A DNA stretch of 43,176 nt from Acidobacteriota bacterium (GTDB lineage: Bacteria > Acidobacteriota > Blastocatellia > Pyrinomonadales > Pyrinomonadaceae), in assembly GCA_020200155.1 (NCBI GenBank), contig JAIVJG010000009.1, forward strand, positions 1 through 43,176. Reading direction: 5' to 3'. Below the pieces are notes generated by a model, which had not been told where the DNA came from, ran no database searches, and saw only the letters and a list, made by a program, of their open reading frames with translations. This document shows positions 3,004 to 33,393 of the stretch, one piece after another. Positions within the stretch are counted from its first letter, which is position 1. Each line of letters starts with the position of its first letter. Position numbers and translations under genes: made by a program.

Positions 3004-3924
3004 ATGAACCAAACTGACATGGCTGACAATAACAAGCAGACGCCGAACCGCATCCCCGTGCGCTTTGTGAACGGCGAGGACGCGGACAAAGCGGAGCGCG
3101 GGCAAACGTCTGACGCGGGACGGGGCGGCGAGCTGACGCCTGACGAGATCGGGCGTGCCTCCGCCTATGACGACGCGACCGAAGTTCAGCGACGGATTGA
3201 TCGCGGGGCGGAGCAGGACAACGAAGAGGGCCGTGGGCGAGCCGACGACGCCGACGCCGCAGGCGGCCCAGACCCCTCGGAGTTGCCGAGGAGCCGCAAC
3301 GAGCAGGACACGACAGTCTCACACGCCGATGACGAGGCGAAAACCGAGCGGGGCGGCGACGATGAATCGTCCGAGCCGCTACGTTCCGCCGATCCCGCCG
3401 CCGGCCCTGTGATGGCTGAACTGGTGGCGACGCGCGCAGAATTGCGACGGGTGGAGGGTGAGTCGCGGAAGATGGCCGAAGAGCGGCAGGAGTTAGCGGA
3501 CATAGCCGCGCGCCGGCAGGCTGACTTCGAGAATTACCGCAAGCGCGTCGAGCGTGAGCGAGCGGAGACGTACCAGCGCGTCGTCGGCGATGTAGTCAAA
3601 CGCCTCTTTCCCGTGATGGACAACTTGCAGCGTGCGCTCGCCGCAGAGGCTTCTGTAGAAGCCACCGAGTCCGAAGAGTTCCGCCATTTCCTGCACGGCA
3701 TTGAACTCGTCAGAAAGCAACTGAACGACGCCGTCGAAGGTCTGGGAGTCGAGTCTGTCCCCACCGTGGGCCAGCCCTTCGACCCACACATTCACGAAGC
3801 CGTCGCCACCGAGGAGACGGACGAATTCCAACCTGACATGGTCACGGCGGAGATGCAGCGCGGCTATCGCCTCGGCGACAAACTCCTGCGTCCCGCTATG
3901 GTCAAAGTCGCAACAAGGCAGTGA
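3004..3924 (+). CDS. grpE: GrpE nucleotide exchange factor with long acidic N-terminus
   Basis: GrpE releases ADP from DnaK. The conserved part starts near residue 140: a long heptad-like coiled-coil helix, then ADFENYRKRVERER, LFPVMDNLQRAL and the C-terminal beta domain with GQPFDPHIHEAV and GYRLGDKLLRPAMVKV. All of these are diagnostic. At 306 residues it is over 100 longer than most GrpE proteins because of an N-terminal stretch very rich in Asp, Glu and Arg, predicted to be disordered. Start choice is uncertain: ATG 3004 has AGGA only 3 bases away, while the in-frame ATG at 3019 (MADNNKQ) is about 18 bases from it. The stop codon TGA is also the first three bases of heptad-repeat element A. 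Followed by dnaK after 81 bases. Confidence 0.95.
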   Translation: MNQTDMADNNKQTPNRIPVRFVNGEDADKAERGQTSDAGRGGELTPDEIGRASAYDDATEVQRRIDRGAEQDNEEGRGRADDADAAGGPDPSELPRSRNEQDTTVSHADDEAKTERGGDDESSEPLRSADPAAGPVMAELVATRAELRRVEGESRKMAEERQELADIAARRQADFENYRKRVERERAETYQRVVGDVVKRLFPVMDNLQRALAAEASVEATESEEFRHFLHGIELVRKQLNDAVEGLGVESVPTVGQPFDPHIHEAVATEETDEFQPDMVTAEMQRGYRLGDKLLRPAMVKVATRQ

Positions 3925-3990
3925 TGAGAGATAAGGGATAAGAGATAAGACATAAGGGATAGGAAAAAGCCTTTCTCTCATCACTCATCA
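3922..3990. repeat. Heptad-repeat hairpin element A (grpE-dnaK)
   Basis: The left arm is a run of degenerate 7-base words: GAGATAA, GGGATAA, GAGATAA, GACATAA, GGGATAG. The outer ends TGATGAGAGA (3922-3931) and TCTCTCATCA (3974-3983) are exact reverse complements, and AGG/CCT pairs close an inner loop. The element begins inside the grpE stop codon and ends 15 bases before dnaK. One of eight such elements in the window. Confidence 0.75.
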
Positions 3991-4005
3991 CCTTCTTAAA
4001 ACGTT

Positions 4006-5865
4006 ATGGCAAAGATTGTCGGAATAGATTTGGGTACGACGAATTGCTGCGTCGCGGTGCTCGAAGGCGGCGCGGTGCAGATCGTTCCGAACAAGGAAGG
4101 CGGGCGGACGACGCCGAGCGTGGTCGGCTTCACGGATAAAGGCGAGCGTCTGGTCGGCCAGATCGCCAAGCGCCAGGCCGTGACCAACGCCGCCAACACC
4201 GTCTATGCCGTCAAGCGCCTCATCGGGCGCAGGTACGAGGCGGCGGAGGTGGAGCGCGCGCGCCAGACCTCGCCCTTCGAGATCGCAGAGGCGTCGAACG
4301 GCGACGCGCGCATACAGGTGCAGGGTCGCGTCTACAGCCCGCAGGAGATTTCCGGCATCGTCTTGCAGCGCCTGAAGGCCGCCGCCGAAGATTTTCTGGG
4401 CGAGGCGGTTTCCGAGGCCATCGTCACTGTCCCGGCCTATTTCGACGACGCGCAACGGCAGGCGACGAAGGATGCGGGGCGCATCGCCGGCCTCAAGATC
4501 GAGCGTATCATCAACGAGCCGACCGCCGCCGCGCTCGCCTACGGCTTGGGCCGCTCCGGTTCGGAGCGCATCGCCGTCTACGACCTCGGCGGCGGCACGT
4601 TCGACATCTCGATTCTGGAATTGAACGATGGCGTGTTCGACGTGCTCGCCACGTCGGGCAACACCTTTCTCGGCGGCGAGGATTTCGACGAGCGTATCAT
4701 CAACTGGATGATCGAGCAGTTTCAACAGGAGACGACGATTGACCTGCGCCAGGATCGGCTCGCGCTGCAACGCTTGAAGGAGGCGGCGGAGCGCGCCAAG
4801 TGTGACCTCTCGTCGCTCACGGAGACGAACATCAACCTGCCTTTCATCGCGGCGGACGCCTCCGGCCCCAAGCACTTCAGCAAGACGCTGACGCGCGAAG
4901 TTTTTGAAAATCTTATCAGCGACCTCGTCGAGCAGACGGTCGAGCCTTGCCAGAAAGCCCTCTGGGACGCGAAGCTTCAGCCGAAGGACATTGATAAGGT
5001 GCTGCTCGTCGGCGGGCAGACGCGCTCGCCGATCATCACGCGGACGGTTAAAGAAATTTTCGGGCGCGAGCCATCTGTCGAGATTAATCCGGACGAGGTC
5101 GTCGCGATGGGCGCGGCGATTCAGGGCGGCGTGCTGACGGGCGACGTGAAAGACATCGTGCTGCTCGACGTGCTGCCCCTGAGCCTCGGGCTTGAGACGC
5201 GCGGCGGCCTCTTCGTCAGGATCATCGAGCGCAACTCGACGATCCCGCTGCGCAGCAGCCAGACGTTCACGACGGTGGTGGATAACCAGTCGTCCGTTGA
5301 GATTCACGTCTTGCAGGGCGAGCGCGAAGTTGCACAGGGCAACCGCTCGCTCGGCAAGTTCGAGTTGGTCGGCATTCCCCCGTCGCCGCGCGGCGGGCCG
5401 CAGATCGAGGTCTCGTTTGAAGTTGACGCCAACGGCATTCTCAACGTCTCGGCACAGGACAAAGTCAGCGGACTTCAGCAGCAGTTGAAAGTCACGCCGA
5501 CCTCCGGCCTTTCAGCGGACGAAATTGACCGGATGATCCTCGAAGCGGCCCACTCCGCCGACGCGGATAGCCGCCTTAAAGAAATTATCGCCCTGCGCAG
5601 CAAACTTGAAAGCCTGATCGCCAACACGGGGCGCTCGCTCAAGGAGTACGGCGGCGCGCTCTCGCCGGACGAGCGCCAGGATGCTCACGCCACGCTGTCT
5701 CAGGGCGAGGACGCGATCAAGTCGGAGGAACTCGAAGAAATTCAAAGTGCATTCCAGGCAGTCACGCGCCTCGCCACGCAGGTGACGCTCGCGATGCTGA
5801 ATCCGTCGGGCAACGGGGCAAGCGTCGCGCCGCCGGAGGTTCTCGATCCAAACGAAAGGCTGTAG
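4006..5865 (+). CDS. dnaK: Molecular chaperone DnaK (Hsp70)
   Basis: ATP-dependent Hsp70 chaperone of the cytosol, working with DnaJ and GrpE. The ATPase domain begins with [16 protein letters not shown] (phosphate 1 loop), followed by [47 protein letters not shown] (phosphate 2) and [11 protein letters not shown] (adenosine motif), to about residue 380. The linker [13 protein letters not shown] leads into the substrate domain and lid. 619 residues is normal to slightly short. Two departures from typical DnaK are [19 protein letters not shown] in place of the usual GG(V/M)xTxLIxRNTTIP stretch, and a C-terminus ending PNERL without the acidic EEVK/EEVD-like tail. The cognate grpE and dnaJ are adjacent, so this is probably the main or a co-main Hsp70. 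Confidence 0.96.
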
Positions 5866-5871
5866 AAAAAC

Positions 5872-5946
5872 CGTCAATCGTGAGTCGCGAATTGTGAATA
5901 GAGAAAGCCTTCTCCTCTGTTTACGATTCACGATTCACGATTGACG
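5872..5946. repeat. Heptad-repeat hairpin element B (dnaK-dnaJ)
   Basis: Left arm words: AATCGTG, AGTCGCG, AATTGTG, AATAGAG. Right arm words: GATTCAC, GATTCAC, GATTGAC. The arms 5872-5907 and 5909-5946 are near-perfect reverse complements over more than 30 bases, beginning with CGTCAATCGTGA. The hairpin fills almost the whole gap between the dnaK stop and the dnaJ start. Confidence 0.8.
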
Positions 5947-5956
5947 ATATTGAGTG

Positions 5957-7078
5957 ATGAGCAAACGCGATTACTACGAAGTGCTCGGCGTTAGCCGGAC
6001 TGCGACGGAGGCGGAAGTCAAGGGCGCATACCGGAAACTCGCCGTGCGTTACCACCCGGACAAGAATCCCGGCGACGCGGCGGCTGAAGAGAAATTCAAA
6101 GAGGCTGCGGAAGCTTACTCCGTGCTCTCCGACGCCGATCAGCGCGAGCGCTACGACCGCTTCGGCCACGCGGGCGTCTCAAGCGCCGGCGGCGCTAACT
6201 GGGGCGCGGCGGGCTTCGGCGGCATCGAAGACATCCTCGGCGAGTTCTTCGGCTTCGGCGATATGTTCGGCGGCGGACGCGGCGGAGGCGGCGCGCGACG
6301 CACAGCCGCGCAACGCGGCGCGGACTTGCGCTACGACCTCGAGATGACGCTCGAAGAGGCCGCTGCCGGGATGACTGCACAGTTACGCATCCCGCGCCTT
6401 GAGGCTTGCGACAACTGCAAGGGTTCGGGGGCCGCGACGGGGACGCAGCCCGAAAACTGCCCGACGTGCGCCGGGACGGGACAGGTGCGTTACCAGCAGG
6501 GCTTCTTCTCCGTGGCGCGTACCTGCGGAAATTGTCGCGGCGCGGGCCGCATCATCAAGTCGCCATGCGACTCGTGCAGGGGAACCGGGCGCGTCGAGCA
6601 CGAGAAGAGCATGGAAGTGAAAATACCTGCGGGTGTCGAAACCGGCTCGCGCCTGCGGATCACGGGCGAAGGCGAGGGCGGCACGCAGGGCGGCCCGGCG
6701 GGCGACCTCTACGTCGTCATCCACGTCAAAGAGCACGAACAATTCGAGCGGCAGGGAAGCAATCTCTACGCCTCTATGCCGGTCACGTTCGCGCAGGCCG
6801 CGCTCGGCTCGGAGATCACCGTCCCGACGCTCGAAGGCCAGGAGCAACTCAAAATCTCTGCGGGCACGCAGACCGGCACGGTCTTTCGTCTCAAGGGGCA
6901 CGGCATGCCCGTGCTGGGCGGTCGCGGTCGAGGCGATCTCTTTGTCTCCGTCACGGTCGTCACACCGACCACGCTCACGCGCGAGCAGCGTAAACTTCTT
7001 GAGCAACTGGCCGAGATCGAAGAAACAGACCTCGGAGACAAGGGACTGATGGACAAGGTGCGAGACATCTTCGGCTAA
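5957..7078 (+). CDS. dnaJ: Chaperone DnaJ (Hsp40, type I)
   Basis: Co-chaperone that stimulates DnaK ATPase and delivers substrates. The J domain is at residues 1-70 with the HPD motif at 33-35. A Gly/Phe-rich region spans about 76-116. The zinc-finger region (151-211) has all four repeats: [24 protein letters not shown] and CDSCRGTG. C-terminal substrate-binding domains I and II follow ([51 protein letters not shown]). 373 residues is the standard length. I chose ATG 5957; a GTG immediately before it is in frame. It is last in the hrcA-grpE-dnaK-dnaJ cluster, 91 bases after dnaK, with element B between. Confidence 0.96.
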
Positions 7079-7204
7079 GCCCACACGGGCGATAAAAGCC
7101 GCCCCCTCAGCTCCGGTCGCTCTCCGGCACATAGCTTGCCATCGTCCGGCACGATGGAATCAAACGCGCTCTACATTTCACCAGATACGACCGGGAGAAC
7201 AAAG

Positions 7205-7564
7205 ATGAGACGAATGCACCTCGCAGGCATCTTCGCCGCACTCTTGCTGGCAATGTTTTCGACCACGGCACTGGCCGCGAGCGGCGGAGACGCCGACACG
7301 GACACGCGCATGATTAATGCGAAAGTCGTGGAGGTCAACGACCAGCACATCTCTGTGATCGCGCGGACGGGCGTCGAGCACGTCATCGCGATTGACGACG
7401 TGAATACGAAGGTGAAGATTGAAGGCAAGCTCGTTTCTCTCAAAGACCTGCGCGAAGGCGACATGGTGACGGTCGAACTCGACACGCTCAACCCTCTCAA
7501 GTTCGCTAAGAGCATCGTCATCGCGATACAGGCCGACAGCCAGTTAGCGACTACGAAGCCCTAG
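7205..7564 (+). CDS. Small secreted protein, unknown function
   Basis: 119 residues. A clear signal peptide covers residues 1-24 (MRRMHL, a hydrophobic core rich in Ala and Leu, cleavage after ALAAS or nearby). The mature part is a small beta-rich domain (VVEVNDQHISVIARTG, then VKIEGKLVSLKDLREGDMVTVEL), a pattern of alternating strands typical of small OB- or SH3-like barrels such as those in DUF5666-type proteins. I do not recognise a specific family with certainty. The ATG at 7205 follows GGGAG at good spacing; longer in-frame starts upstream have no ribosome site. It is 126 bases after dnaJ and is followed by a strong terminator, which probably ends the chaperone transcript too. Confidence 0.7.
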   Translation: MRRMHLAGIFAALLLAMFSTTALAASGGDADTDTRMINAKVVEVNDQHISVIARTGVEHVIAIDDVNTKVKIEGKLVSLKDLREGDMVTVELDTLNPLKFAKSIVIAIQADSQLATTKP

Positions 7565-7646
7565 CCGCCAGCACACAAGATCACCTCTGTCGCTGAGTGC
7601 GGTGTCCGCTTTCGGGCGTCACACTGTAAGCTCAACGGCACGACAG

Positions 7647-7686
7647 AGCCGCTTTGCTTCCCTCGCAATGAAGCAAGGCGGCTTTT
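7647..7686 (+). terminator. Rho-independent terminator
   Basis: A 14-bp stem (7647-7660 with 7670-7683, one G-T pair) around a 9-base loop is followed by TTTT. It ends transcription from the dnaJ/secreted-protein side before the convergent tsaD gene. Confidence 0.85.
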
Positions 7687-7699
7687 GATTTAAACAATA

Positions 7700-7788
7700 A
7701 ATGCGGCAGTGACGGATGATGAATGAAGACAGTCTGCTTTTTATTCATCACTCATCACTGCCGCATTCATCATTCCGCATTCATCATT
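7700..7788. repeat. Heptad-repeat hairpin element C (upstream of tsaD 3' end)
   Basis: Left arm 7700-7724 and right arm 7743-7767 are near-perfect complements (AATGCGGCAGTGA shared, then a GATGAAT end). To the right a 14-base unit, two heptads CATTCAT and CATTCCG, is repeated in tandem up to 7788. It lies between convergent genes and ends 5 bases before the tsaD stop codon. Confidence 0.75.
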
Positions 7789-7792
7789 TCTC

Positions 7793-9094
7793 TTAAAGTC
7801 TGTAACGAACTTTGCTCCGGCGCAGGGCATCGTCTTCGACATCGAGGTTTTGGAGGCGGAGTGACACGTCGGCGTTGAGGTCGAGGCCGGCGCGCTCGCC
7901 CGCCTGTAATTTGACCGTGCCGGCGGCGGCAATCATCGCGGCGTTGTCTGTCGAGAGATGACGGGAGGGGAAGTAGACGGGTATGCCGAGACGCCCGCCC
8001 GCCTCGCTCGACGCTTCCCTGAGCGCGCCGTTGCAGGCCACGCCGCCGGCGACGATGAGCGTGCGCGGTCGGTGCTCCTGCGCCAGTCGCTCGGTCGTGC
8101 CGACGAGCGAGCGCACCACCACGTCCTGAAAACTCGCCGCCAAATCCCTGACGGCACGCGAAGGCTCCTCGCCTGTCGCGACGGCTTGCAGTCCCGTCTC
8201 GCGAACGTGCTTCGAGACCGCCGTCTTCAATCCGCTGAAGCTGAAATCGGGTCGCCCGTCGCCCATGCGCGGCACGCTGAAACGCACGGCGCGCGGGTCG
8301 CCTTCGCGCGCGAGTCGTTCGATGATGGGGCCGCCGGGGTAGCCGAGTCCGAGCATTTTCGCCACCTTGTCGAACGCCTCGCCCGCCGCGTCGTCGCGCG
8401 TCCGCGCCAGCACTTTGTACTTGCCGGGCGCGGGGATGAGGAACAGGTTGGTGTGGCCGCCGGAGACGACGAGCGCGAAGGCCGGGTACACAATCGGCGG
8501 ATTCTCGAAGACGACCGAGTAGACGTGGCCCTCGATGTGGTTGACGCCGACGAGCGGCTTGTCGAGCGCGTAGGCCATCGCCTTCGCGTATGAGATGCCG
8601 ACGAGCAGCGAGCCGACAAGGCCCGGCCCCTGCGTCACGGCGATGCCGTCAATCTCCTCCAGCGCGACGCCCGCGCGCGTGAAGGCTTCTTCGACGACGG
8701 GGACGATCTTGTCGAGGTGCTCGCGCGAAGCGAGTTCCGGCACGACGCCGCCGAAAAGTTTGTGCGTCTCGATTTGCGAAGAGATGACGGACGACAAAAT
8801 CTCGCGCCCATCGCGCACAATCGCCGCCGCCGTCTCGTCGCAGGAGCTTTCGATACCAAGTACGAGCATATGCATCATTCCTGAAAGTTTCAGCCGTGCG
8901 ACGATGCAATCGTAGCCGATGTAGATGGACGATACCGCGATGCCCAGACCAGATTCGCTCACGTCGCGAGTGTAGGCGTCGAGTCTCGCGCGTGGGAAAA
9001 GAATGCTCTCTTCTTCGAGTGGTAGAGAGATGAAACACGGAACGCGGACGCCGAATCTTGGTGAAAGCCGTCGCTCCCTTCCGGACGGATTCAT
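7793..9094 (-). CDS. tsaD: TsaD (t6A37 tRNA threonylcarbamoyltransferase) with PilZ-like N-terminal module
   Basis: TsaD, with TsaB and TsaE, transfers threonylcarbamoyl to A37 of ANN-decoding tRNAs. The TsaD core begins at the ATG at 8869 ([17 protein letters not shown]) and has the metal motif [54 protein letters not shown] and DNAAMIA; it is 358 residues, normal size. The same frame is open a further 75 codons upstream to an ATG at 9094 that has an excellent ribosome site (GGGAGG, 6-base spacing). This extension looks like the first ~70 residues of a PilZ domain. Either the product is a 433-residue PilZ-TsaD fusion, or a truncated pilZ remnant reads into tsaD, which could also start internally at 8869 behind AGGA. 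I give the full open frame; the core is certain, the fusion is inference. Confidence 0.93.
8873..9094 (-). other. PilZ-like segment fused in frame to TsaD
   Basis: Residues 1-74 of the fused frame. Both c-di-GMP contact motifs of PilZ are present: RxxxR at R9-R13 (RRLSPRF) and DxSxxG at D44-G49 (RDVSESGLG). The typical later strands of PilZ (about 40 residues) are missing; the TsaD start follows directly after [13 protein letters not shown]. Recognition rests on the motifs and their spacing, not on a database match. Confidence 0.65.
8879..8882 (-). promoter_or_regulatory. Internal ribosome binding site for TsaD core
   Basis: AGGA on the minus strand lies 9 bases before the ATG at 8869 where classical TsaD would begin. 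It makes separate translation of a standard-length TsaD possible. Confidence 0.4.
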
Positions 9095-9100
9095 GTATGT

Positions 9101-9106
9101 CCTCCC
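9101..9106 (-). promoter_or_regulatory. Strong Shine-Dalgarno of the PilZ-TsaD frame
   Basis: GGGAGG on the minus strand, 6 bases before the ATG at 9094. It is among the best ribosome sites in the window, which argues that the PilZ-like segment is translated. Confidence 0.65.
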
Positions 9107-9242
9107 GCCGATGCATTTGTTGAACGGACACTGCCCCGCCCGATCAATTCATCTTAACGTTTCAGGACGTGTGAGGATAATTTATTTTTTGCGCCACGAC
9201 CGGCGACGAAATAAACGTCGCGCCGGGCAGGCTTTTATCCTT

Positions 9243-12117: not shown

Positions 12118-14517
12118 TCAACCGACAGCGGCGAGGCCGAAGCGCGCGTCGGCACGCACGCGCTCGATCAGGCGTGAGGTCTCGCGTGTGCGCCCGCGCG
12201 TCGTCAGGTAGTAGTCGGCCTCGCGGCGTGCGTCTTCGAGAATCTGTATGTCGCGCACGAGATTGCCGACGCGGAAGGTGGGGACGCCGGACTGCCGGGT
12301 GCCCATCACTTCGCCGGGGCCGCGAAGCTCAAGGTCTTTTTCGGAGATGCGGAAGCCGTCGTTGGTTTCTTCCATGATGCCTAGACGCTCGCGCGCCACA
12401 GACGTTTGTTTCTCCGAGGCGAGCAGGATGCAGTAGGACTTCTCAGCGCCGCGCCCGACGCGCCCGCGCAACTGGTGGAGTTGCGAGAGGCCGAAGCGCT
12501 CGGCGTGCTCGATAATCATCACAGAGGCGTTCGCCACGTCAACGCCGACCTCGACGACGGTCGTCGCGACAAGTACGTGAATCTCCCCGGCGACGAAGCG
12601 GCGCATCACCTCCTCTTTGTCCGCAGTCTTCATCTTGCCGTGCAGCAGCCCGATGGAAAAGTGCGGGAAGACGCGGTCGCGCAGGTGCTCGAACATGCGC
12701 GTCGCATCCTTCAAGTCCATCTTCTCCGACTCCTCGACGAGCGGGTAGACGACGTAGACCTGACGCCCGCCGCGCACCTCGCGCTCGATTCCCTTGTAGA
12801 CGCCCGCGCGCTGGTCTTCGCCGACGACGACGGTCTTGATCGGCGTCCGTCCCGGCGGCAGTTCGTCAATCACAGACACGTCGAGGTCGCCGTAGACGGT
12901 CATCGCCAGGCTTCTGGGAATCGGCGTCGCCGTCATCACCAGCACGTCCGGGTTGAAGCCGCGCTCGCGCAGCGCCGCGCGTTGCATGACGCCGAAGCGG
13001 TGCTGCTCGTCAATCACGACAAGGCCGAGTTTGCTGAACGAGACTGCTTCCTGTATCACCGCGTGCGTCCCGACGCAGGCGTGAATCTCGCCCGACGCGA
13101 GGTCTTTGTGAAGGCGCTTTTTTTCGCTCGCGCGCAGCGAGCCGACGAGCAGTTCGACGCGATAGGGCGTCGGCGCAAGCAGGCGCTTGATGTTGCGCGC
13201 GTGCTGCTCTGCGAGGATTTCCGTGGGCACCATCAGCGCGGACTGGTAGCCGTTCTCCATCGCCGCCAGCATCGCCAAAAGCGCCACGGCGGTCTTGCCG
13301 CTGCCGACATCTCCTTGCAGCAGGCGATTCATCGGCACGTCCGATTGCATGTCGTCGAGAATGCGCTTGATGGCGCGTGCCTGCGCGCTCGTCAGCGTGA
13401 AGGGAAGCGTCGAGAGCATGCGCTCGTACATGCGCTCGGTGATTTCGATGAGCGCGCCCTTCGGTTCCTTCGTCCGCTCGCTCCGCCGCAGCGCAATCGC
13501 GAGCGCGACCCAGAAAAATTCCTCGAAGATGAGACGCAGGTGCGCCGGGCTGCGTGCGCGCTCGTACTCCGCAAGCGGCGCGTCTTCCGTCGGAAAGTGT
13601 ATACGACGGATGGCTTCGCCGCGATTGACGAGGTGTTGGCGCGCGATTAATTCGGCGGGCAGCGTTTCGTTGAAAGCCGCGTCATCAAGCAGCCCGATCA
13701 ACGCATGGATAATCTCGCGCAGTCGCTTCGTGCGAAACTCGCCGAGCTTGCGATAGACCGGCACGCGCCGGCCTGTGTGAATCGCGGCCAGCACCGGGTC
13801 AGTCGCTTCTTCATCCAACGCCACATCTTCGCCGGCACCTTCTTCGTCAACATCATTTCCCGTGCCGCGCGGCGCGTTCTGGCCGTCCGCGTCGTCGCTT
13901 TCCGCTGCACGCCCTCCGTTGTCGGAGTTGGCCTGCGCGTCTCCCTCTTCCGCGATGCGTATCAGCGCGTGCTCCGGCGGCGTCCATGTGCCGGGCAGCA
14001 TCTCCAACTCGTCGGGCTTGCCCAGATGCAGCGCGAAGGTGTTGCGCCGCGAGTCCCACTCCCACTTGCCGAAGGCGACGAAGCGCGCGCCGCGCGTGAA
14101 TCTTTGACGGTAGTAAGCGACGATGCGTTGAGCCTGTCGCCCGGACACGAACCACCACACGACGACCGGCTTGCCCGTCCGCTCCGGGTCGCTCGCCGTG
14201 ACCTCGAAGATAAACAGCGGCGGCGCTTTCGGCCCGCGATTCTTGCCCACCTGAAAGCCGCCCGCCACTCTGACGTATAACTCAAGCGACGCCTCGACCC
14301 CGTCGCGCAGTTCGGCCACGCGCGCGAGGTTCGAGCGATCCTCGTAACGCATCGGCAGGTAGTTCAGGAGGTCTTCGACCGACACCTCGCACGCGTCTCC
14401 CTTGCCCGACACGTTCGCCAGCGCCAGCGCCAGCTTGCGCGCCGTCGGCACACCGAGCCGCGAGACGCCGTACTTCGGCAGAGAGAGAATGGGCGTGGTC
14501 AGCGTGAGCTGAGACAT
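12118..14517 (-). CDS. recG: ATP-dependent DNA helicase RecG
   Basis: RecG remodels stalled replication forks and branch-migrates Holliday junctions. N-terminal wedge/OB region to about 190, then helicase domains: Walker A GDVGSGKTA at 402-410, PTEILAEQHA, DEQH box at 503-506, TATPIPRS (motif III) and in the second RecA-like domain LHGKM, ATTVVEVGVDVANAS and QLRGRVGRG. The C-terminus has the RecG signature GFRISEKDLELRGPGEVMGTRQSG. At 799 residues it is about 100 longer than E. coli RecG, partly from an acidic, Gly/Asp/Glu-rich insert at about residues 190-242 in the wedge-helicase linker. ATG 14517 is chosen; the open frame extends 16 codons more, but those codons are the heptad-repeat element D and are not family sequence. 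Confidence 0.95.
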   Translation of the reverse strand: MSQLTLTTPILSLPKYGVSRLGVPTARKLALALANVSGKGDACEVSVEDLLNYLPMRYEDRSNLARVAELRDGVEASLELYVRVAGGFQVGKNRGPKAPPLFIFEVTASDPERTGKPVVVWWFVSGRQAQRIVAYYRQRFTRGARFVAFGKWEWDSRRNTFALHLGKPDELEMLPGTWTPPEHALIRIAEEGDAQANSDNGGRAAESDDADGQNAPRGTGNDVDEEGAGEDVALDEEATDPVLAAIHTGRRVPVYRKLGEFRTKRLREIIHALIGLLDDAAFNETLPAELIARQHLVNRGEAIRRIHFPTEDAPLAEYERARSPAHLRLIFEEFFWVALAIALRRSERTKEPKGALIEITERMYERMLSTLPFTLTSAQARAIKRILDDMQSDVPMNRLLQGDVGSGKTAVALLAMLAAMENGYQSALMVPTEILAEQHARNIKRLLAPTPYRVELLVGSLRASEKKRLHKDLASGEIHACVGTHAVIQEAVSFSKLGLVVIDEQHRFGVMQRAALRERGFNPDVLVMTATPIPRSLAMTVYGDLDVSVIDELPPGRTPIKTVVVGEDQRAGVYKGIEREVRGGRQVYVVYPLVEESEKMDLKDATRMFEHLRDRVFPHFSIGLLHGKMKTADKEEVMRRFVAGEIHVLVATTVVEVGVDVANASVMIIEHAERFGLSQLHQLRGRVGRGAEKSYCILLASEKQTSVARERLGIMEETNDGFRISEKDLELRGPGEVMGTRQSGVPTFRVGNLVRDIQILEDARREADYYLTTRGRTRETSRLIERVRADARFGLAAVG

Positions 14518-14523: not shown

Positions 14524-14605
14524 AAGGGATGAGGGCGGAGGGATAAGGGATGAGTTGGAAGACAAGTGCGTCTTTTTTACTTCATCCCTCCGCCCACATC
14601 CTTTT
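14524..14605. repeat. Heptad-repeat hairpin element D (bacilliredoxin-recG)
   Basis: Left arm words in exact 7-base register: GGGATGA, GGGCGGA, GGGATAA, GGGATGA. Right arm 14584-14605 reads CATCCCT, CCGCCCA, CATCC and is the complement of 14524-14544 with two mismatches. It fills the gap between the bacilliredoxin stop and the recG start, both on minus, and spuriously extends the recG frame. Confidence 0.8.
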
Positions 14606-17649: not shown

Positions 17650-18366
17650 CTACTTTTGATTTCCTCTACGGCGTTTGCGAGCGGCTGCCGCCAGCCCCGT
17701 CAGACCCGTGCCAAGCAGGATCATCGTCGCCGGTTCTGGGACGGGATTCTGGTTCGCGCCGGTGATTCGTCCCGTAATCGAGACGGTCTGACCCGGATCA
17801 ATGGCCGTGTCAATGACGTTGAAGGAGAAACTACCGGAGCCGCAAGTGGTTTGTTGTCCGGGAACGCCGCCGGTCGGGTCGGGTTCGCAGTTAGTGTCGG
17901 TGAAAGTAAAGAGTTGCGGCGTGTTGTCAAAGTCAATAAAGACGCCGCCCTGATTGTCGGAGCGAACCGTACCTGTGACTAAAGCTGTAAAGGTCGCCGA
18001 GTTGGAGCCAGCGATGCCTTGTGGGGCTGTGAACGTCACTAGCAAGGTAAATGGCGTGTTATATGTGTTCGGGGCTGTGCTCAGGGAAAGTGAGCCAAGA
18101 TTGTTGACGTTGGCACCCGGATTCGGGTTTCCGCCGAGACTACGAGAGCCATTTGCCGTCGTACCGCTGAAGGTGGAGTTGCTATAGCTCAGTCCAAGAA
18201 AAGTAGCGCTGCTACCGGGCGTGCAACCTGCTCCAAAGCATCCGTTGGTAAAACCGGCGACGAAAACCTCATCGGCACGCGCTTCGCTCTGGCCGAGCGT
18301 GAAGATGGCTATTGCAAAAATGCTGAGTGCGAATGGTTTAACCATCGCGAGAAGGCGGCTGTTCAT
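17650..18366 (-). CDS. PEP-CTERM sorting-domain secreted protein
   Basis: 238 residues. An N-terminal signal peptide (about 1-31, ending SEARA-D) is followed by a Ser/Thr/Gly/Asn-rich beta domain with four Cys. The C-terminus has the complete PEP-CTERM layout: NPVPEPATM, a hydrophobic span ILLGTGLTGLAAAA and a basic tail RKRRR. In known systems exosortase (EpsH/XrtA) cleaves such tails to attach proteins to exopolysaccharide or the surface; no exosortase is in this window. ATG 18366 follows GGAGGG at about 9 bases. Own terminator downstream, so it is probably monocistronic. The function of the mature domain is unknown. Confidence 0.88.
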   Translation of the reverse strand: MNSRLLAMVKPFALSIFAIAIFTLGQSEARADEVFVAGFTNGCFGAGCTPGSSATFLGLSYSNSTFSGTTANGSRSLGGNPNPGANVNNLGSLSLSTAPNTYNTPFTLLVTFTAPQGIAGSNSATFTALVTGTVRSDNQGGVFIDFDNTPQLFTFTDTNCEPDPTGGVPGQQTTCGSGSFSFNVIDTAIDPGQTVSITGRITGANQNPVPEPATMILLGTGLTGLAAAARKRRRGNQK

Positions 18367-22518: not shown

Positions 22519-22598
22519 GTAGAGGTCGGAGGCCAGTGGCAGAGAGGTCAGTGAAAACAGATTTCTACTAACCTCTGACCTCCAACCTCCGACCTCTG
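22519..22598. repeat. Heptad-repeat hairpin element E (upstream of the response regulator)
   Basis: Right arm (22571-22598) is in strict 7-base register: CCTCTGA, CCTCCAA, CCTCCGA, CCTCTG. The left arm (22519-22550) starts AGAGGTCGGAGG and is complementary with a few mismatches. It lies immediately upstream of the regulator ATG. The words match those of element G at 33344-33393. Confidence 0.8.
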
Positions 22599-27430: not shown

Positions 27431-27547
27431 CTCTATTTCTCCCACGCCACTTGTGCGCGAACACTTCCACCTCATCTCACAAACCCGACCGGAAATCTCT
27501 GCGGCGCGTCCAAACTTGAGAAGGCCCGCGCACGCGAGCTAGGGAAG

Positions 27548-27563
27548 AGCAACCATCATGCCG
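27548..27563 (-). promoter_or_regulatory. Sigma-54 promoter candidate for the minor-pilin operon
   Basis: On the minus strand the sequence CGGCATGATGGTTGCT matches the -24/-12 pattern: GG and GC separated by exactly ten bases, with TTGCT at -12. Predicted leader to the fimT ATG is about 105 bases. Pilin genes of type IV pili are often sigma-54 dependent through PilR. Confidence 0.55.
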
Positions 27564-28080
27564 CTTCCTCAAGTTGGAAAACGCAGGGGAAAACTGTTTT
27601 CGGGGAACAGTCGCGCGACGAGCTTGTTACTTTGCGTAACGACATAGGAACGTCGTTTCACATCATGCTCGGCAGATTAACCCTACGAAGCGGAAGAGAC
27701 GTGCGTTACATACTCGTGTCACCAACAGAAACATTCGGGGGCACGAGTCGTGAATTGTGAAGACTCGGCGTGCAGTAGGCCGTGAGTCTGAGTTGTAGGC
27801 GTAGAAAGGTTTAGGCAGGTCAGAGTCGTGACGACACAAGAGCGGCGTGCGAATTGCTCCGAAGCGCCAACGGCCACGCGCGTTCGTGTCGTGCTCCTCG
27901 AAGCCTCTGGCCGCGAGGGAGACGACAAAGCGCGAACGGGCCAGACGCAAGTTGCTATTGAAGGATGCGGTGCGGCGCTTTTTTTCAGGCGAACCTTCCC
28001 TGGCATCTCCTCCAAACGGAAACCAACAGCATCGTCCCCACGCGCGTTGTGCCGCACACAGCGCACGCACGGGACGAAAA

Positions 28081-28112
28081 GCGCCCCGGCGACTCTCAGG
28101 CCGCCGGGGCGC
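28081..28112 (-). terminator. Terminator of dacB (bidirectional-looking)
   Basis: GCGCCCCGGC (28081-28090) and GCCGGGGCGC (28103-28112) form a perfect 10-bp stem. On minus it is followed by TTTTC; on plus by AACTTTTT, so it may work in both directions. It lies 80 bases past the dacB stop. Confidence 0.8.
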
Positions 28113-28123
28113 AACTTTTTAAC

Positions 28124-28187
28124 GGATGAAGGCGGAGGGTGAAGGACGAATAGAAAGCACATGACTTTCTTCATCCTTCTGACCTCT
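28124..28187. repeat. Heptad-repeat hairpin element F (3' of dacB)
   Basis: Left arm words: GGATGAA, GGCGGAG, GGTGAAG, GACGAAT. Right arm words: TTCATCC, TTCTGAC. AAGGACGAATAGAAAG and CTTTCTTCATCCTT pair with one bulge. It lies between dacB and its terminator, so it would be in the dacB mRNA 3' region. Confidence 0.65.
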
Positions 28188-28192
28188 ATGCC

Positions 28193-29608
28193 TTAGTTTG
28201 GCGGTTCGTATTCGTCCGTGCCGGCGGGCTTCGCCCCGTCGAATTCGGAGGTGGCGAGGCGCATGGCAAGCGTATGCGGCGTGTAGGTGAAAGGGGCCGG
28301 GCCGCCGCGCGCGTTCTGTAGATCGGAAATGAGCATGTCCTGCGAGTCGCGGAAGCGGCGCACGCTGCCGCGCTGGTTGAAGATGACGAAGAGGAGCGTC
28401 TCGCCGTCGCGTGTGCGAAATTGCCCGACGAGCGCGCTCGCGCCGCCGTCTGTGTGCGGCAGTGTGCCGGTCTTGCCAATCACGCTCCCGCGTGCCGCGC
28501 TGTCGGCGTAGCGCTTCTGTAGAGTGCCGGGGTCAACGCCTGCGACGGGCAGGATGTCCGCCGCCTTCAGATTATTCTTTTTCAACTCGGCGAGCAGTGC
28601 GCGGTAAACCTTCAACATCTGGCGCGGCGTCAGGCGGTTGACGCCGAGGCCGCTTGTGGAGGCGAGGCGAATCGAGTCGGGCGCGAAGCCGAGTTCCGTC
28701 GTCAGTAAACGCTTCACTCCCTGCGGGCCGCCGAGCGCGTCGCCGAGGCGTTCGGCCATGAAGTTGTTCGAGTAACAGAGCAGGACTTTCAACACGTCCA
28801 CGAGCGGCGACGAGTAATGCGTGAGCACGACACGCGCGCCCTTCGGCACAGAGTCAACGTAGACCGCGCCCATCACGGCGACGCTCGGCGTGGCCTGCAA
28901 ACCCGCCGCATCGCCGAGCGCGAGGCGCATGTCGTACCACGCTCGCGTCGCCGCCGCCGGTCGTCTGGTCGCGTCGAGCGTGTCGTAGAAGACCTCGCCT
29001 GAGCGCAGCGAAGACGCGCTGAAATTCATCGTGAAGCGAGGCGCGACGATCAGATCGCCCGTGACCGTGCGGATGCCGAGGCCGTTGAGTTCGCGCGCCA
29101 CAGCCACCGCGTGTTCGTAGTGGAAGGAAGGGTCGCGCCCCGCGACGACGAGGTCGCCGTTAACAGTGCCGGTCGCTTTATCAAAAGTGCCGTTGATCCA
29201 GATGGCCGTCGCGAAGCGGTGCTTCGCCCCGAACGTGCGCAGCGCAGCGAGCGCCGTCGTCAGCTTGACGGCGGACGCCGGGTTGAAAGACTGATCGGAA
29301 GCCTGATCCAACACCACTTCGCCGGCGAGCTTTTCCACGAGGACGCCCTGCCTTGAAAAGATTGGCTTCTCATCAAACGCCTGCGGCAAAAAGTCTTCGG
29401 GCGCGGCGGGAACAACAGGCTCAGCGGTGGGCACAACAATAGGCGTCGTCAGGACTGGCCGTGTGATCGGGGTTCGAGGTGAAGGGGTGGACTGTTGCTG
29501 CTGTGTCGTCGGCGCGACGGGGCGCACGTCCTGCGCGCGCGCACCGGCGAGCGACGACAGAAAGATGCCGAGGGCAAGAATTACACGACTCGTCTTTAAA
29601 CTTCCCAT
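28193..29608 (-). CDS. dacB: D-alanyl-D-alanine carboxypeptidase/endopeptidase (PBP4, peptidase S13)
   Basis: Periplasmic low-molecular-weight penicillin-binding protein that trims or opens peptidoglycan cross-links. Signal peptide at about 1-25, then a Pro/Thr/Gln-rich linker to about residue 70. Catalytic motifs are in order: SxxK at 112-115 (NPASAVKL), SxN at 280-282 (YSNNFMAE) and KTG at 379-381 (GKTGTL). 471 residues is typical for PBP4 types; the large insert between SxxK and SxN characteristic of S13 is present. ATG 29608 follows GAGG at about 8 bases. Stand-alone gene with its own terminator; divergent from the ogg gene. Confidence 0.92.
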   Translation of the reverse strand: MGSLKTSRVILALGIFLSSLAGARAQDVRPVAPTTQQQQSTPSPRTPITRPVLTTPIVVPTAEPVVPAAPEDFLPQAFDEKPIFSRQGVLVEKLAGEVVLDQASDQSFNPASAVKLTTALAALRTFGAKHRFATAIWINGTFDKATGTVNGDLVVAGRDPSFHYEHAVAVARELNGLGIRTVTGDLIVAPRFTMNFSASSLRSGEVFYDTLDATRRPAAATRAWYDMRLALGDAAGLQATPSVAVMGAVYVDSVPKGARVVLTHYSSPLVDVLKVLLCYSNNFMAERLGDALGGPQGVKRLLTTELGFAPDSIRLASTSGLGVNRLTPRQMLKVYRALLAELKKNNLKAADILPVAGVDPGTLQKRYADSAARGSVIGKTGTLPHTDGGASALVGQFRTRDGETLLFVIFNQRGSVRRFRDSQDMLISDLQNARGGPAPFTYTPHTLAMRLATSEFDGAKPAGTDEYEPPN

Positions 29609-29729
29609 TGCTTGTCCTCTAACTTTAACGCTGCCGGAGCGCGCGCATCATAACATGCCGGTGCTGATAAACGTCGCCCGCCGAAAAAAATACGGGGAGT
29701 GCCTGTCCGGGCTAGACGTTCTGATGCCC

Positions 29730-29757
29730 GCGCGCATCGTACGAGATGCATGCGCGC
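29730..29757. repeat. Inverted repeat in the dacB-ogg divergent region
   Basis: GCGCGCAT (29730-29737) and ATGCGCGC (29750-29757) pair perfectly; CATC/GATG pairs continue inside. It lies between the divergent dacB and ogg promoters and could be a shared operator. No known regulator site is matched. Confidence 0.4.
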
Positions 29758-29808
29758 AGCTAATTTCCATAAATGCATAAGCAATCTGTGTTCCCGCAAA
29801 AGAGTTCG

Positions 29809-29838
29809 TTGACAAGTCCGAGAACGCGCTCCTAGAAT
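29809..29838 (+). promoter_or_regulatory. Sigma-70 promoter of the ogg gene
   Basis: TTGACA (29809-29814), an 18-base spacer and TAGAAT (29833-29838). It is the best sigma-70 promoter match in the window and lies 40 bases before the GTG start. Confidence 0.75.
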
Positions 29839-29877
29839 CCGACGTGTTATCGGAGACCGCGCTTTTGACAAACGTTT

Positions 29878-30540
29878 GTGCCGCGAATCAAAGAACCCGT
29901 CACCGTCGAAAGCATACGCGCCACGCACCGCGCGCGTGCGCGTGAGATTCGCGCGCGGCTCGCGGAGTTCAGTGAAGTGTGGCGACAGTCTTCAGACGCG
30001 AGGCTCTGGGAAGAGTTGGTCTTCTGCATCTTCACCGCCGGTGCTTCGGCGCGCATGGGCCTGCGTTCCATTGAGGCGATCAGGCCATTGCTCGCGCGCG
30101 GCACGCATGAAGAACTGGCCGGTGCGCTGACGAGCGTTCACCGTTACCCGCGTGCGCGTTCGGGCTACGTCGTCGTGACGCGCGACTTTCTACGGCAGGA
30201 TTGCGGCATGCGTCTGCGCGAGCGGCTGGAGAATTTTACAGACCCGCTGGAACGGCGCGACTGGCTCGCGCGCGAGCGCGGCATCAAGGGCCTCGGTTAC
30301 AAAGAGGCGAGCCACTTTTTACGCAACGTCGGCTTTCGCGGCTACGCGATTTTGGATAAGCACGTCCTACGTAGCCTCGCGGAACTCGGACGTATTGATT
30401 CGCCGCAGCCTCCGACGACACGCGCACGCTATCTCGCCGCCGAAGAGCGCCTCCGCGAATTCGCGAGCGACACAGGGATCAACTTCGACGAACTCGACCT
30501 CGTACTCTGGTCAATGAAGACCGGCGAAATTTTGAAATGA
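29878..30540 (+). CDS. N-glycosylase/DNA lyase, Ogg2-type 8-oxoguanine glycosylase
   Basis: 220 residues. Base-excision repair enzyme that removes 8-oxoguanine and cleaves the AP site. The helix-hairpin-helix and catalytic segment is GIKGLGYKEASHFLRNVGF (about 138-156), with the catalytic Lys in GYKEAS, followed by the catalytic Asp in YAILDKHVLR; this arrangement is that of the Ogg2 (MjaOgg-like) branch, found in archaea and some bacteria. The earlier EELVFCIFTAGASARMG helps the assignment. GTG at 29878 is the only reasonable start and has a weak ribosome site. The C-terminal LVLWSMKTGEILK is typical of the branch. Followed by element H and the TPR-retropepsin gene. Confidence 0.87.
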   Translation: MPRIKEPVTVESIRATHRARAREIRARLAEFSEVWRQSSDARLWEELVFCIFTAGASARMGLRSIEAIRPLLARGTHEELAGALTSVHRYPRARSGYVVVTRDFLRQDCGMRLRERLENFTDPLERRDWLARERGIKGLGYKEASHFLRNVGFRGYAILDKHVLRSLAELGRIDSPQPPTTRARYLAAEERLREFASDTGINFDELDLVLWSMKTGEILK

Positions 30541-30543
30541 AGG

Positions 30544-30616
30544 TTTGCGACTTTTGATTCACGCTTGGGGAGAGGCCGGCAAGTTCCCCCTTGTCTCCAA
30601 TCGCAAATCAAAAATT
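30544..30616. repeat. Heptad-repeat hairpin element H (ogg-TPR/retropepsin)
   Basis: Left arm words: TTTGCGA, CTTTTGA, TTCACGC, TTGGGGA. Right arm words: TCTCCAA, TCGCAAA, TCAAAAA. Arms are complementary with slippage by one word (TTTTGATT with AATCAAAA, TTGG with CCAA). It starts 4 bases after the ogg stop and ends 14 bases before the next ATG. Confidence 0.7.
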
Positions 30617-30630
30617 CTGTGGGAGTTGTT

Positions 30631-32238
30631 ATGAAAAGACTTCGACGCCCGGCGGTCGGCAGTTTGGCCGCCTTCGTTTTTTGCGCCGCGCTCGGTGCGA
30701 CGAACGTGACGTTCGGGGCGGTGGCGTCCGCTACGGCTCCCGCCGGCGAGGGCGACAAGACGCGCGGGCGCGCCGATCATGCGTTGCGCGCGGGCGATTT
30801 CGAGGATGCAGAGAAAATTTATCGCGAATTGCTCGCCAAACACCCGCAGGACGTGGCTGTACGTCTGGGCCTGAGCCACGCGCTGCTCAAGCAGCGGAAG
30901 ATTCAGGACGCCTTCGATCAGGCGGCGCGCGTCGTCGCCGTCGAGCCGATGAGCGCGCGAGCGCACGCGCTGATCGGCGCGGCCCTGCTGGCCGCAGGCG
31001 ACTTCCGCGTCTCGGTCGAAGAGTTCCGCACAGCACTCAGCTTCAAGGATGACGAGGCCATCGCGGTTGCGGGGCTGGCGATGATTGACTTCTATGAGAA
31101 CCGCCTCACGTCGAGCATGGAGGGCCTGCGCCGCGCGGCGTTCCTCGATCCTGACGAGCCGGACTACTACTACAATCTCGGCCAGGTTTCCGCGCGCTCC
31201 GAGCGATACGCGGAAGCCGCCAGAGCCTATGAGCGTTTCCTGCGTATCGCCCCGCGTACGGACGCCGACCGCCGGGCGCGCATCCGCGGCCTGATAGACT
31301 TCCTCCGTTACCTCGGCACGCAGGGCGATCTTCTGCGCGTCGGCGGCGCATCGCGCAACGTCATCTCCTTCGACCTCACGAACAACCGTCCGATTGTCAC
31401 CGTCCGCATCAACAACTCGAAAGAGCCGCTCCGCTTCGTCGTAGACACGGGCGCGGGGATGACCGTCATCTCGACGAACGCGGCTGAACGACTGGGGCTG
31501 AGTCCGGTCGCGCGCGGTGGGATGGCGCGGGCCATCGGCGGCGGCGGGCGCTTCGAGATCGTCTACGGCTTCATCCAGTCGCTGCACATAGGCGACGCGC
31601 ACGTCGAGCGCGTGCCCGTCTACATTCGCCCGTTCTTCAACGCACAGGAGCCGGTTGACGGCTACGTCGGACTCTCGATTCTCTCGAAATTTCTCTCCTC
31701 GGTTGATTACGGGGCGTGCACACTTCAGTTGCTGCGTGACGACGCTATCCCGGCCTACAACCCCGTCGCCCCGCCGCCCGGCATCGAAATCCCGATTCGC
31801 GTTACCTCCAGCGGCTTCTGGAGCGGCGAGATAAAAATCGAAGGCATTGAGAAGCCCGTCAACTTCATCATTGACACGGGCGCGAGCATCTCCGTTATCT
31901 CTGAGGCGCTGGCCGCGCGCGAAGATATGGGACGCTTCGCGCAAAAGTCGCGCATCCAGATTTACGGCGCAGCCGGACTGACTGAAAATGTCCAGACGCT
32001 GATGCTGCCCGCGATGTTTCTCGGCTCGCACACCCGCAAGAACGTGCCCGCCGCCGTCCTCGACCTCGGCTCGATCAACGAGACTGCCGGGTTCGAGCAG
32101 ACCGGCATCGTCGGCGGAAACGTCCTCCGCAATTTCCGTGTGACCTTCGACTTCGCGCACGGTGTCGTCCGTCTCGAACCCATCAGGAACGCGCCCGCCG
32201 ACGACGCCAAAACGCCCATCGTCACCAGCCAAACATGA
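30631..32238 (+). CDS. Secreted TPR protein with two retropepsin-like aspartyl protease domains
   Basis: 535 residues. Signal peptide at about 1-31. TPR repeats span about 43-235 (AGDFEDAEKIYRELLAKHPQ, EPMSARAHALIGAALLAAGD, DYYYNLGQVSARSERYAEAA). Two tandem retropepsin-like domains follow, each with the catalytic triad motif: FVVDTGAGMTVIS (Asp272) and FIIDTGASISVIS (Asp415), with the hydrophobic-GLSI and VGGNVLRNF flap-end counterparts. Since retropepsins work as dimers, the two domains could form a single-chain active site. The ATG at 30631 follows GGGAG at 5 bases, an ideal ribosome site; the longer open frame is element H. Last four bases overlap the PIN gene (ATGA), so the two are coupled. 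Confidence 0.85.
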   Translation: MKRLRRPAVGSLAAFVFCAALGATNVTFGAVASATAPAGEGDKTRGRADHALRAGDFEDAEKIYRELLAKHPQDVAVRLGLSHALLKQRKIQDAFDQAARVVAVEPMSARAHALIGAALLAAGDFRVSVEEFRTALSFKDDEAIAVAGLAMIDFYENRLTSSMEGLRRAAFLDPDEPDYYYNLGQVSARSERYAEAARAYERFLRIAPRTDADRRARIRGLIDFLRYLGTQGDLLRVGGASRNVISFDLTNNRPIVTVRINNSKEPLRFVVDTGAGMTVISTNAAERLGLSPVARGGMARAIGGGGRFEIVYGFIQSLHIGDAHVERVPVYIRPFFNAQEPVDGYVGLSILSKFLSSVDYGACTLQLLRDDAIPAYNPVAPPPGIEIPIRVTSSGFWSGEIKIEGIEKPVNFIIDTGASISVISEALAAREDMGRFAQKSRIQIYGAAGLTENVQTLMLPAMFLGSHTRKNVPAAVLDLGSINETAGFEQTGIVGGNVLRNFRVTFDFAHGVVRLEPIRNAPADDAKTPIVTSQT

Positions 32239-32714
32239 AGCAGAGCATTTATCTTGAAACCTCCGTCGTCGGCGCGTATCTCGACAACGGCGAGCCGTTC
32301 CGCCGCGATCTGACGATCCGTTGGTGGGAGCACGAAATGTCGGAGTACCACGCCGTCATTTCGCCGCTCGTCGTGCGCGAACTTGAGCGCGTGCCGGAGC
32401 CGCACCGCACGGGCTATCTCAAACTCGTCGAACCGCTCGCACGCGTCGAGCTGACGGACGAGGCCACGATTCTCGCCGAAGGGTACATCGCGCGCGGCAT
32501 CTTTCACCGCAAGTACATCGGCGACGCGATGCACGTTGCAGTCGCCTCGTTCCACAAGATAGACTATCTCGTGACGTGGAACTTCGGACATCTCGCGAAC
32601 GTGCGCAGGCAGGCACGCATCCGGCTCTTCAACACGACCGCCGGCTTCTTCGTCCCGCAGATCGTCACGCCGGAGTTTCTGGTTTCCGAGTTGACGGAGA
32701 AGAGTGATAGATAA
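32235..32714 (+). CDS. PIN-domain protein (putative toxin RNase)
   Basis: 159 residues. The start SIYLETSVVGAYLD is the first PIN acidic site (Glu8 in the YLETS form used by one branch of PIN proteins), with a second acid in VVRELERV (Glu49) and a third in YIGDAMHVAVA (Asp97), and TWNFGHLAN near 114-122. These positions fit the metal-binding pocket of PIN nucleases, which in VapC toxins cleave RNA. The ATG overlaps the TGA of the preceding gene by ATGA, indicating coupling to the TPR-retropepsin gene. A short antitoxin-like gene lies 400 bases downstream after an unrelated membrane ORF. Confidence 0.85.
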   Translation: MKQSIYLETSVVGAYLDNGEPFRRDLTIRWWEHEMSEYHAVISPLVVRELERVPEPHRTGYLKLVEPLARVELTDEATILAEGYIARGIFHRKYIGDAMHVAVASFHKIDYLVTWNFGHLANVRRQARIRLFNTTAGFFVPQIVTPEFLVSELTEKSDR

Positions 32715-32755
32715 TGAGTCCTGTTTTTCATACTTAAGTGCCTAAACACCAACGG

Positions 32756-33097
32756 ATGAAATTATCTAGTCTCGCAAACAAATTCGATGACGCATTAGTC
32801 GGGAGCACCCGGTTCCGGCTGGCGATGATTTTCATCATCGTGCCTTCGACAATTTTTCTCCTCGACATTCTGTTGGGAGAGGGATTGATTCTCGGAGGAA
32901 TGGTAATAATCGGTTCGTATTGCATCGCACTCCTGATTGGCGCGCTCTCGTCTGCGCTCGACGATCAAGGAATATTTAGAATCTGCCGAACCTTCATCGC
33001 TCTTACCAGTCCGTTTGTGCTTGGTAGTTTAGTCTTTCTAGTTTACGTGGGTCTTTGGATTGTTTATCTTTTGTTCGTTGGCCGGTTAGATTTCTGA
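32756..33097 (+). CDS. Small low-GC membrane protein, no recognised family
   Basis: 113 residues from ATG 32756 (a GTG at 32738 gives 119). Three hydrophobic spans: FRLAMIFIIVPSTIFLLDILL, LILGGMVIIGSYCIALLIGAL and PFVLGSLVFLVYVGLWIVYLLF. No family recognised. Counting three 60-base lines by eye gives about 47 % GC, well below the 60 % of the surroundings, and codon use differs (many AT-ending codons), suggesting recent acquisition. No Shine-Dalgarno is seen at either start. It lies between the PIN gene and the antitoxin-like gene. It might be a real integral membrane protein of an accessory element. Confidence 0.6.
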   Translation: MKLSSLANKFDDALVGSTRFRLAMIFIIVPSTIFLLDILLGEGLILGGMVIIGSYCIALLIGALSSALDDQGIFRICRTFIALTSPFVLGSLVFLVYVGLWIVYLLFVGRLDF

Positions 33098-33113
33098 ATT
33101 AATGTATTGAGTT

Positions 33114-33338
33114 ATGTACCGTAAGCCGAAATTCCTCGAAGAGCTGCACGCCATCCGCGAAGAGATGTCGCGTGAGGCCGATTACGATGTCGAGTTGTTC
33201 GCCGAGATGACGCGCACAGGCCAGCGCCCGACCCACGGCCCGGTGCACAACATCAGGGGCTTGAAGAGTCGCGCACCGCGTGCCGACGAACGGACGGGCG
33301 CGGCGACGAAACCCGCGCGCCGGAAAATCAGTGGTTAA
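33114..33338 (+). CDS. Putative antitoxin partner of the PIN protein
   Basis: 74 residues. The N-terminal half, KFLEELHAIREEMSREADYDVELFAE, has the pattern (E-(I/L)HxIRExx..Y-D) seen in small proteins that neighbour PIN-domain toxins as antitoxins. The C-terminal half is basic and low in hydrophobics. It lies in the same direction as the PIN gene but with the membrane ORF between, whereas normally such partners are directly adjacent. ATG 33114 has no strong ribosome site. Family assignment rests on the pattern only. Confidence 0.6.
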   Translation: MYRKPKFLEELHAIREEMSREADYDVELFAEMTRTGQRPTHGPVHNIRGLKSRAPRADERTGAATKPARRKISG

Positions 33339-33343
33339 TTGCG

Positions 33344-33393
33344 AGAGGTCGGAGGTTGGAGAGGATTTTATCGCCAACTAACCTTCAACCTCT
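33344..33393. repeat. Heptad-repeat hairpin element G
   Basis: Left arm words: GAGGTCG, GAGGTTG, GAGAGG. Right arm words: AACCTTC, AACCTCT. AGAGGTCGGAGGTTGGAG pairs with CTAACCTTCAACCTCT with few mismatches. It lies 6 bases past the antitoxin-like stop and 20 bases before the next start. Word set shared with element E. Confidence 0.7.

Follow-up and report, generated by a model that had tools for sequence, protein, structure and literature searches.

In Xanthomonas and Nostoc, heptamers of the forms GGGAATC and GGGGA(T/C)T are arranged in tandem between genes, at an average of 28 nt from the nearer upstream gene, and are rarer between divergent genes (Rehm et al., 2015, PMC4692102); two Xanthomonas genomes carry 70 and 75 convergent inverted heptamer pairs (PMC4692102). 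An excess of heptamers in bacteria has also been described, along with the cyanobacterial short tandemly repeated repetitive (STRR) and TAACTGA repeats, the latter located mostly right upstream of start codons (MacGregor, 2015, PMC4679880), while heptamer satellites, among them (GATAGRA)n in Chloroflexus, occupy several loci per genome (Subirana and Messeguer, 2019, PMC6749651). The REP and REPIN elements associated with RAYT are small, high-copy palindromes found between unidirectional and convergent genes (PMC3733652, PMC3116915), and frequent GT pairing has been reported in REPs (PMC3733652). Here we describe intergenic hairpins with arms of tandem heptads, first noted in a window of 43,176 nt (the whole stretch of DNA analysed) that constitutes contig C271 of a metagenome-assembled genome (MAG) of a soil bacterium in the Pyrinomonadaceae (Acidobacteriota; 4.25 Mb in 312 contigs; G000 hereafter). 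Comparison with related genomes, likewise given G numbers, demonstrates that the hairpins keep their sites while the words composing them are replaced.

Like the heptamers of Xanthomonas and Nostoc, the elements are tandem heptads located between genes, near the upstream gene, seldom in divergent gaps and in inverted pairs; since the Xanthomonas pairs are published, an inverted heptad pair right after a gene is known in kind. However, those genomes each contain one G-rich word family, discussed in terms of G-quadruplexes, whereas many families, nested layers and replacement are observed here. Period 7, intergenic location, multiple words and dispersal are shared with the cyanobacterial STRR and TAACTGA repeats, yet the latter are described mainly as direct repeats and the present elements are inverted pairs past stop codons, in Acidobacteriota. 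The stylistic likeness to cyanobacterial heptamer repeats drawn in the initial annotation is, in our judgement, fair, and like that to the Xanthomonas and Nostoc heptamers it rests on published descriptions and style. Heptamer satellites have the same unit and several loci per genome but are single tandem arrays, not paired inverted arrays of degenerate units. As with REP and REPIN elements, the hairpins are small, palindromic, high in copy number and located between unidirectional or convergent genes; they differ in their periodic, word-variable arms, in the lack of a sense-strand G-U bias and in that several relatives with elements yielded no transposase. In-situ replacement of words at conserved sites appears to be new; the literature searched, largely without subscription papers, describes neither genomes with many word families nor nested layers nor a replacement of dialects at sites that are themselves conserved, and the novelty of all three is provisional.

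Enrichment was assessed in an 824-kb sample of G000 comprising the window, 20 stretches picked mostly by prior motif match, and therefore biased, and 40 picked blind. Strong period-7 repeats (lag-7 run score of at least 9) are present in 67 of its 344 intergenic gaps of 40-400 nt, compared with 1.7 in shuffles, and are combined with a hairpin in 43, compared with 0.1. The remaining periods from 4 to 12 yielded 3-14. Excess identity occurs at lags 7, 14 and 21 in intergenic DNA, in the unbiased part of the sample as well, and is absent at lags 7 and 14 from coding DNA; within intergenic hairpin arms, identity is 0.55 at lag 7, most of the other lags giving roughly 0.25-0.3. Tandem 7-nt units are thus enriched between genes, as in heptameric intergenic repeats, and seven relatives show similar enrichment; these results support a period-7, self-complementary family such as the initial annotation proposed, one that extends across the genome and recurs in relatives. 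Period 7 is dominant and not the sole period, because a hairpin of period 8 (GGGGAGAC) occupies a gap near position 12670 of locus L189 in G034. Elsewhere, the G040 partner of the gap at L202:18671 is 362 nt long and consists of a longer imperfect tandem repeat with units like GCGAAAGTTCAAATCCGCAGAGT; the gap in G020 is short.

The fate of individual sites was followed in G020 and G040, congeners with a median protein identity of 88% and the only pair for which a large number of sites was compared; the agreement of G010, G034 and G048 rests on fewer. Among 99 orthologous gaps, an element is present in both genomes in 31, in one in 7 and in neither in 61 (p = 6e-18), and among gaps of 40 nt or more the corresponding counts (both, one or the other, neither) are 28/1/4/37 (p = 3e-14). 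Most of the nominally single-occupied sites are threshold cases. Presence/absence polymorphism at orthologous sites, which the initial annotation had anticipated, is consequently not the dominant pattern: sites are retained and words exchanged, such that 19 of the 31 doubly occupied gaps lack any common 7-mer. Element-free gaps align above the 95th percentile of random sequence in 33 of 34 cases, compared with 18 of 27 gaps with elements; among short gaps, alignment is poorer where an element is present than where there is none (p = 0.004). Since element-free gaps still align, ordinary intergenic DNA is unsaturated at this distance and evolves more slowly than the elements do.

Each genome has its own dialect. 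Doublets of GTGACRA number 914 in G040 and 9 in G020, and those of ACGATGA number 213 in G020, 200 in G025, 44 in G001 and 2 in G000. In a first sample, 7-mer sharing was 0.315 within G040, 0.037 between G020 and G040, and 0.030 at orthologous sites. At a single junction compared across eight genomes, the words are GTGACRA enclosing GTGAATC in G040, GTTTCAG in G020, GTACTGA in G043, GTCTRGA in G015, an array of CCCCCAT where a contig ends in G025, GATGAAT/GCGGA in G010, GTGATGA in G034 and GTGAACC-like words in G048. Similarly, at the grpE-dnaK and dnaK-dnaJ junctions, occupied in the window by elements A and B (Table 1), relatives possess hairpins made of different words, although Pyrinomonas methylaliphatogenes has none of the elements at its dnaK junctions. 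At the recG site of element D, hairpins with ACGATGA, AGGATGA or GTGATGA words occur in G020, G025, G043 and G040; here the order of GATGA and GCGGA is retained across genera and the 2-nt prefix differs in every unit.

Retention of sites while words change is what would be expected if selection acted on an RNA hairpin, through mRNA 3'-end protection, processing or attenuation, with the sequence drifting freely below it. Consistent with this explanation, occupancy is specific to the junction (hrcA-grpE 1/42, grpE-dnaK 14/47, dnaK-dnaJ 18/40), and divergent gaps are avoided, with elements in 11 of 142 compared with 200 of 762 others (p = 2.5e-7). At some sites, junction specificity hints at a role in the 3' end or the intercistronic part of the mRNA. 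However, sense-strand G-U pairs are not in excess among arm mismatches (191 vs 179, p = 0.57), and drift alone leaves the genome-wide dialects unexplained. We regard selection of this kind as an unlikely full explanation, albeit one compatible with the overwriting of elements proposed below.

The anatomy of the elements was examined in a set of 215 from eight genomes. Between co-directional genes, the median distance is 3 nt from the upstream stop codon to the beginning of the 5' arm and 10 nt from the end of the 3' arm to the next start; as short multicopy palindromes located between unidirectional or convergent genes, the elements resemble REPs. The 5' arm is mostly purine in 191 elements and mostly pyrimidine in 21, and in all 187 cases drawn from 14 word families the 5' arm carries the word and not its complement (187:0). 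Single polarity within one family is expected from copying; the purine bias across families is less trivial. Inner boundaries are common within families, for example GTGAATAGA...TCTATTCAC or GACAAGTTAAA...TTTAACTTGTC, and surround a short core that is A-rich and then T-rich. Words of the GATGA type have in common the order GATGA, GCGGA, GATGA, GATGA, each with a 2-nt prefix (AT, AC, GG, AG or GT) that is usually uniform inside one element. Perfect mirror order of units between the arms was rejected, as violations are frequent. An apparent conserved core with swapped arms looked real by eye, but its forward test (p = 0.02) reflected pairs with related words. A GTAG or CGTC tag at one end was not evident in the elements inspected, although tags were not counted. 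TGA or TCA occurs in 27 of 60 heptad words where 14 are expected, and stops in all frames are found in 62% of elements compared with 46% of shuffles; combined with period 7, this places stops in every frame of many elements, but the pattern is suggestive only, since words lacking a stop triplet (AAAGGGG, GGCAAAA) occur.

Could local mutation alone have produced this anatomy, with slippage building heptads, quasi-palindrome template switching copying one arm to the other, and each site evolving independently? Bacterial slippage is known to favour period 7 (PMC4679880), and the two arms of an element match each other better (0.733) than they match same-family mates on average (0.646), a difference inflated by the way elements were selected. 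Nevertheless, we consider this explanation improbable. Identical words recur at hundreds of unlinked positions in one genome while being nearly absent from its congener, a distribution that requires copying between sites; the shared inner boundaries and the often unequal order of units between arms likewise argue against independent origins. For the same reason, slippage followed by inversion, one of two routes suggested in the initial annotation, is not supported as a full account. The other, mobilisation in trans, may make or spread the elements, although a search of four element-bearing or heptad-bearing relatives did not recover Y1/RAYT, the usual mobiliser of REPs.

That the elements are ordinary intrinsic terminators with decorated stems is very improbable. 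Placement at 3' ends and cores that are A-rich and then T-rich would suit such a role, but many elements lie within operons, as in grpE-dnaK-dnaJ, and the canonical hairpin plus T-run of an intrinsic terminator lies inside just 10 of 202. An apparent mutual exclusion of elements and terminators, which had raised the possibility of substitution, was lost after control for gap length: in convergent gaps of 150-400 nt, a terminator is present in 4 of 9 with an element and 3 of 22 without. A dedicated enzyme of known type would be either a Y1/RAYT transposase, as for REPs, or a reverse transcriptase that, in the manner of telomerase, adds heptads to both ends of a break. It would account for REP-like palindromes, 3' placement and copy number, and for head-to-head arrays of one polarity, which look like the product of templated extension from two broken ends. 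This is nevertheless the most improbable of the alternatives, as PF01797 (IS200-type, Y1/RAYT) had no match in G040, G034, G010 or G030, relatives with many elements or heptad matches, and PF00078 (RVT_1) none in G040, G010, G030, G020 or G025. The assemblies in both searches are 71-91% complete, so that one missed gene is possible and all missed unlikely. PF01797 had 2 matches in G000 and G020.

Hairpins of one family are enclosed in those of another in G000, G040 and G015. Five shells of period 11 (GGATGGACAGGATG) in G000 enclose other hairpins, mostly heptad; in G040, GTGACRA lies outside and GTRAATC inside; and in G015, at loci chosen for wide arm spacing, GTGACRA lies outside ATTAAAG-type words, with a GC-rich palindrome innermost once (L264). 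The period-11 shells, composed of TTTACACGGATGGACAGGATGNACAGGATAAAAG and its complement at L014, L030, L039, L050 and L129, represent a second repeat family of different period. The GC-rich palindrome ACCGCCTGCGGTAGCGGGCGGGT was observed at L030:19511, L041:1276 and L042:12284 in G000, at L264 in G015 and at L173 in G025, and is a separate REP-like family found in more than one genus and at times nested with heptad hairpins. The order of layers can be read at one locus, site 2, where G040, G043 and G025 have an outer layer of GTGACRA, of which G020 and G015 retain remnants; the GTRAATC layer inside it occurs in G040, G020 and G015, and an innermost GTRAATG layer in G015 alone. The inner part looks younger than the outer, to judge from this distribution, and the wider sharing of the outer layer suggests insertion into a resident loop and decay of the old arms. 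The opposite route, addition of new arms outside an old hairpin, is hinted at by L203:16491 and opposed by site 2.

The explanation that we favour, to which we assign an even chance, is that the elements are non-autonomous palindromes at tolerated 3' sites that are overwritten by a spreading family through loop insertion and arm decay. They would act like REP elements or miniature inverted-repeat transposable elements (MITEs) with arms of tandem heptads, and would settle in tolerated spots right past the stop codons of co-directional or convergent genes. The heptad family currently spreading in a lineage would insert copies where a hairpin already stands, most likely in its loop, and the older outer arms would decay, such that position is retained and words are exchanged. 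Loop insertion as the usual route is extrapolated from site 2; copying may proceed via host replication or repair (template switching at a stalled hairpin) or some further factor, and heptads may grow by polymerase slippage.

Several observations weigh against this explanation. Firstly, concerted change could re-derive similar word families, as the change of prefix at the recG site illustrates. Secondly, the order of layers is polarised at only one site, and at L203:16491 the inner layer is common to both congeners and the outer is confined to G040, a pattern that fits either loss of outer arms in G020 or their gain in G040, of which overwriting through the loop requires the loss. Thirdly, the searches identified no mobilising enzyme, and a clean empty/filled pair with target duplication was not seen. 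By comparison with MITEs, the elements have inverted repeats, offer no clean empty site for duplication comparison and matched no transposase.

Within the window, each of the eight elements proposed in the initial annotation was compared with 1000 dinucleotide shuffles, using k7, the best-scoring lag-7 run, and a fold z-score (Table 1).

Table 1. Heptad elements of the window (MFE, minimum free energy).
Element	Coordinates	Location	Words and structure	k7	p	MFE	Fold z
A	3922..3990	between grpE and dnaK	GATAAGA/GGATAAG	20	<0.001		-2.3
B	5872..5946	between dnaK and dnaJ	GTGAATC/GTCAATC; near-perfect hairpin	16	<0.001	-46.2	-12.2
C	7700..7788	convergent gap	GATGAAT/GATGCGG, additional 3' units	11	0.002		-6.6
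D	14524..14605	upstream of recG	GGGATGA/GGGCGGA	11	<0.001		-6.6
E	22519..22598		GAGGTCG/GAGGTCA	14	<0.001		-5.6
F	28124..28187		weak, degenerate GGATGAA/GGCGGAG copy	6	0.03		-2.5
G	33344..33393		short hairpin, GAGGTCG/GAGGTTG	8	0.001		-3.6
H	30544..30616		hairpin, small period-7 signal, hardly any purine asymmetry	7	0.011		-2.1

Six of them (A-E and G) stood as period-7 hairpins and two, F and H, are weak; none gave a signal at lags 6 and 8, and no additional strong element was found in the remaining gaps of the window. The 5' arm is purine-rich and the 3' arm pyrimidine-rich, as had been claimed, in all except H, which is probably not a family member. Element A alone is a poor hairpin, with a long left and a short right arm. 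The elements had also been placed wholly outside genes, which needs amending: A opens with the TGA (3922-3924) that terminates grpE, while open reading frame calls with TTG starts that run too long extend into D and H, the true starts probably being located further inside. Genes were called by a simple method based on codon usage, so some gap edges are off. Nor are the words unrelated between elements, since a GATGA/GCGGA framework is common to C, D and F and GAGGTCN to E and G. The nearest relatives of the hrcA-grpE-dnaK-dnaJ cluster are Acidobacteriota MAGs labelled Pyrinomonadaceae or group 4; most of the relatives compared here are incomplete MAGs. Separately, a protein encoded at 17653-18366 carries a C-terminal PEP-CTERM sorting motif (PF07589).

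We know of no accepted explanation of the seven-nucleotide unit of bacterial heptad repeats or of their spread. Tentatively, and with some doubt, the elements may belong to a class of hairpin repeats long held at fixed junctions, in which competing families overwrite one another via the loop with no recognised transposase or reverse transcriptase and the 7-nt unit derives from the copying machinery. A benefit to the host is unproven. This repeat family provides a tractable system, with its many word families, its paired genomes that use different dialects at corresponding sites, and its nested intermediates from which the sequence of events can be read. Loop insertion, if true, would let small palindromes endure at particular junctions with no need of a recognised transposase; selection for hairpins, if true, would mean that shape is conserved while sequence is fully replaced.

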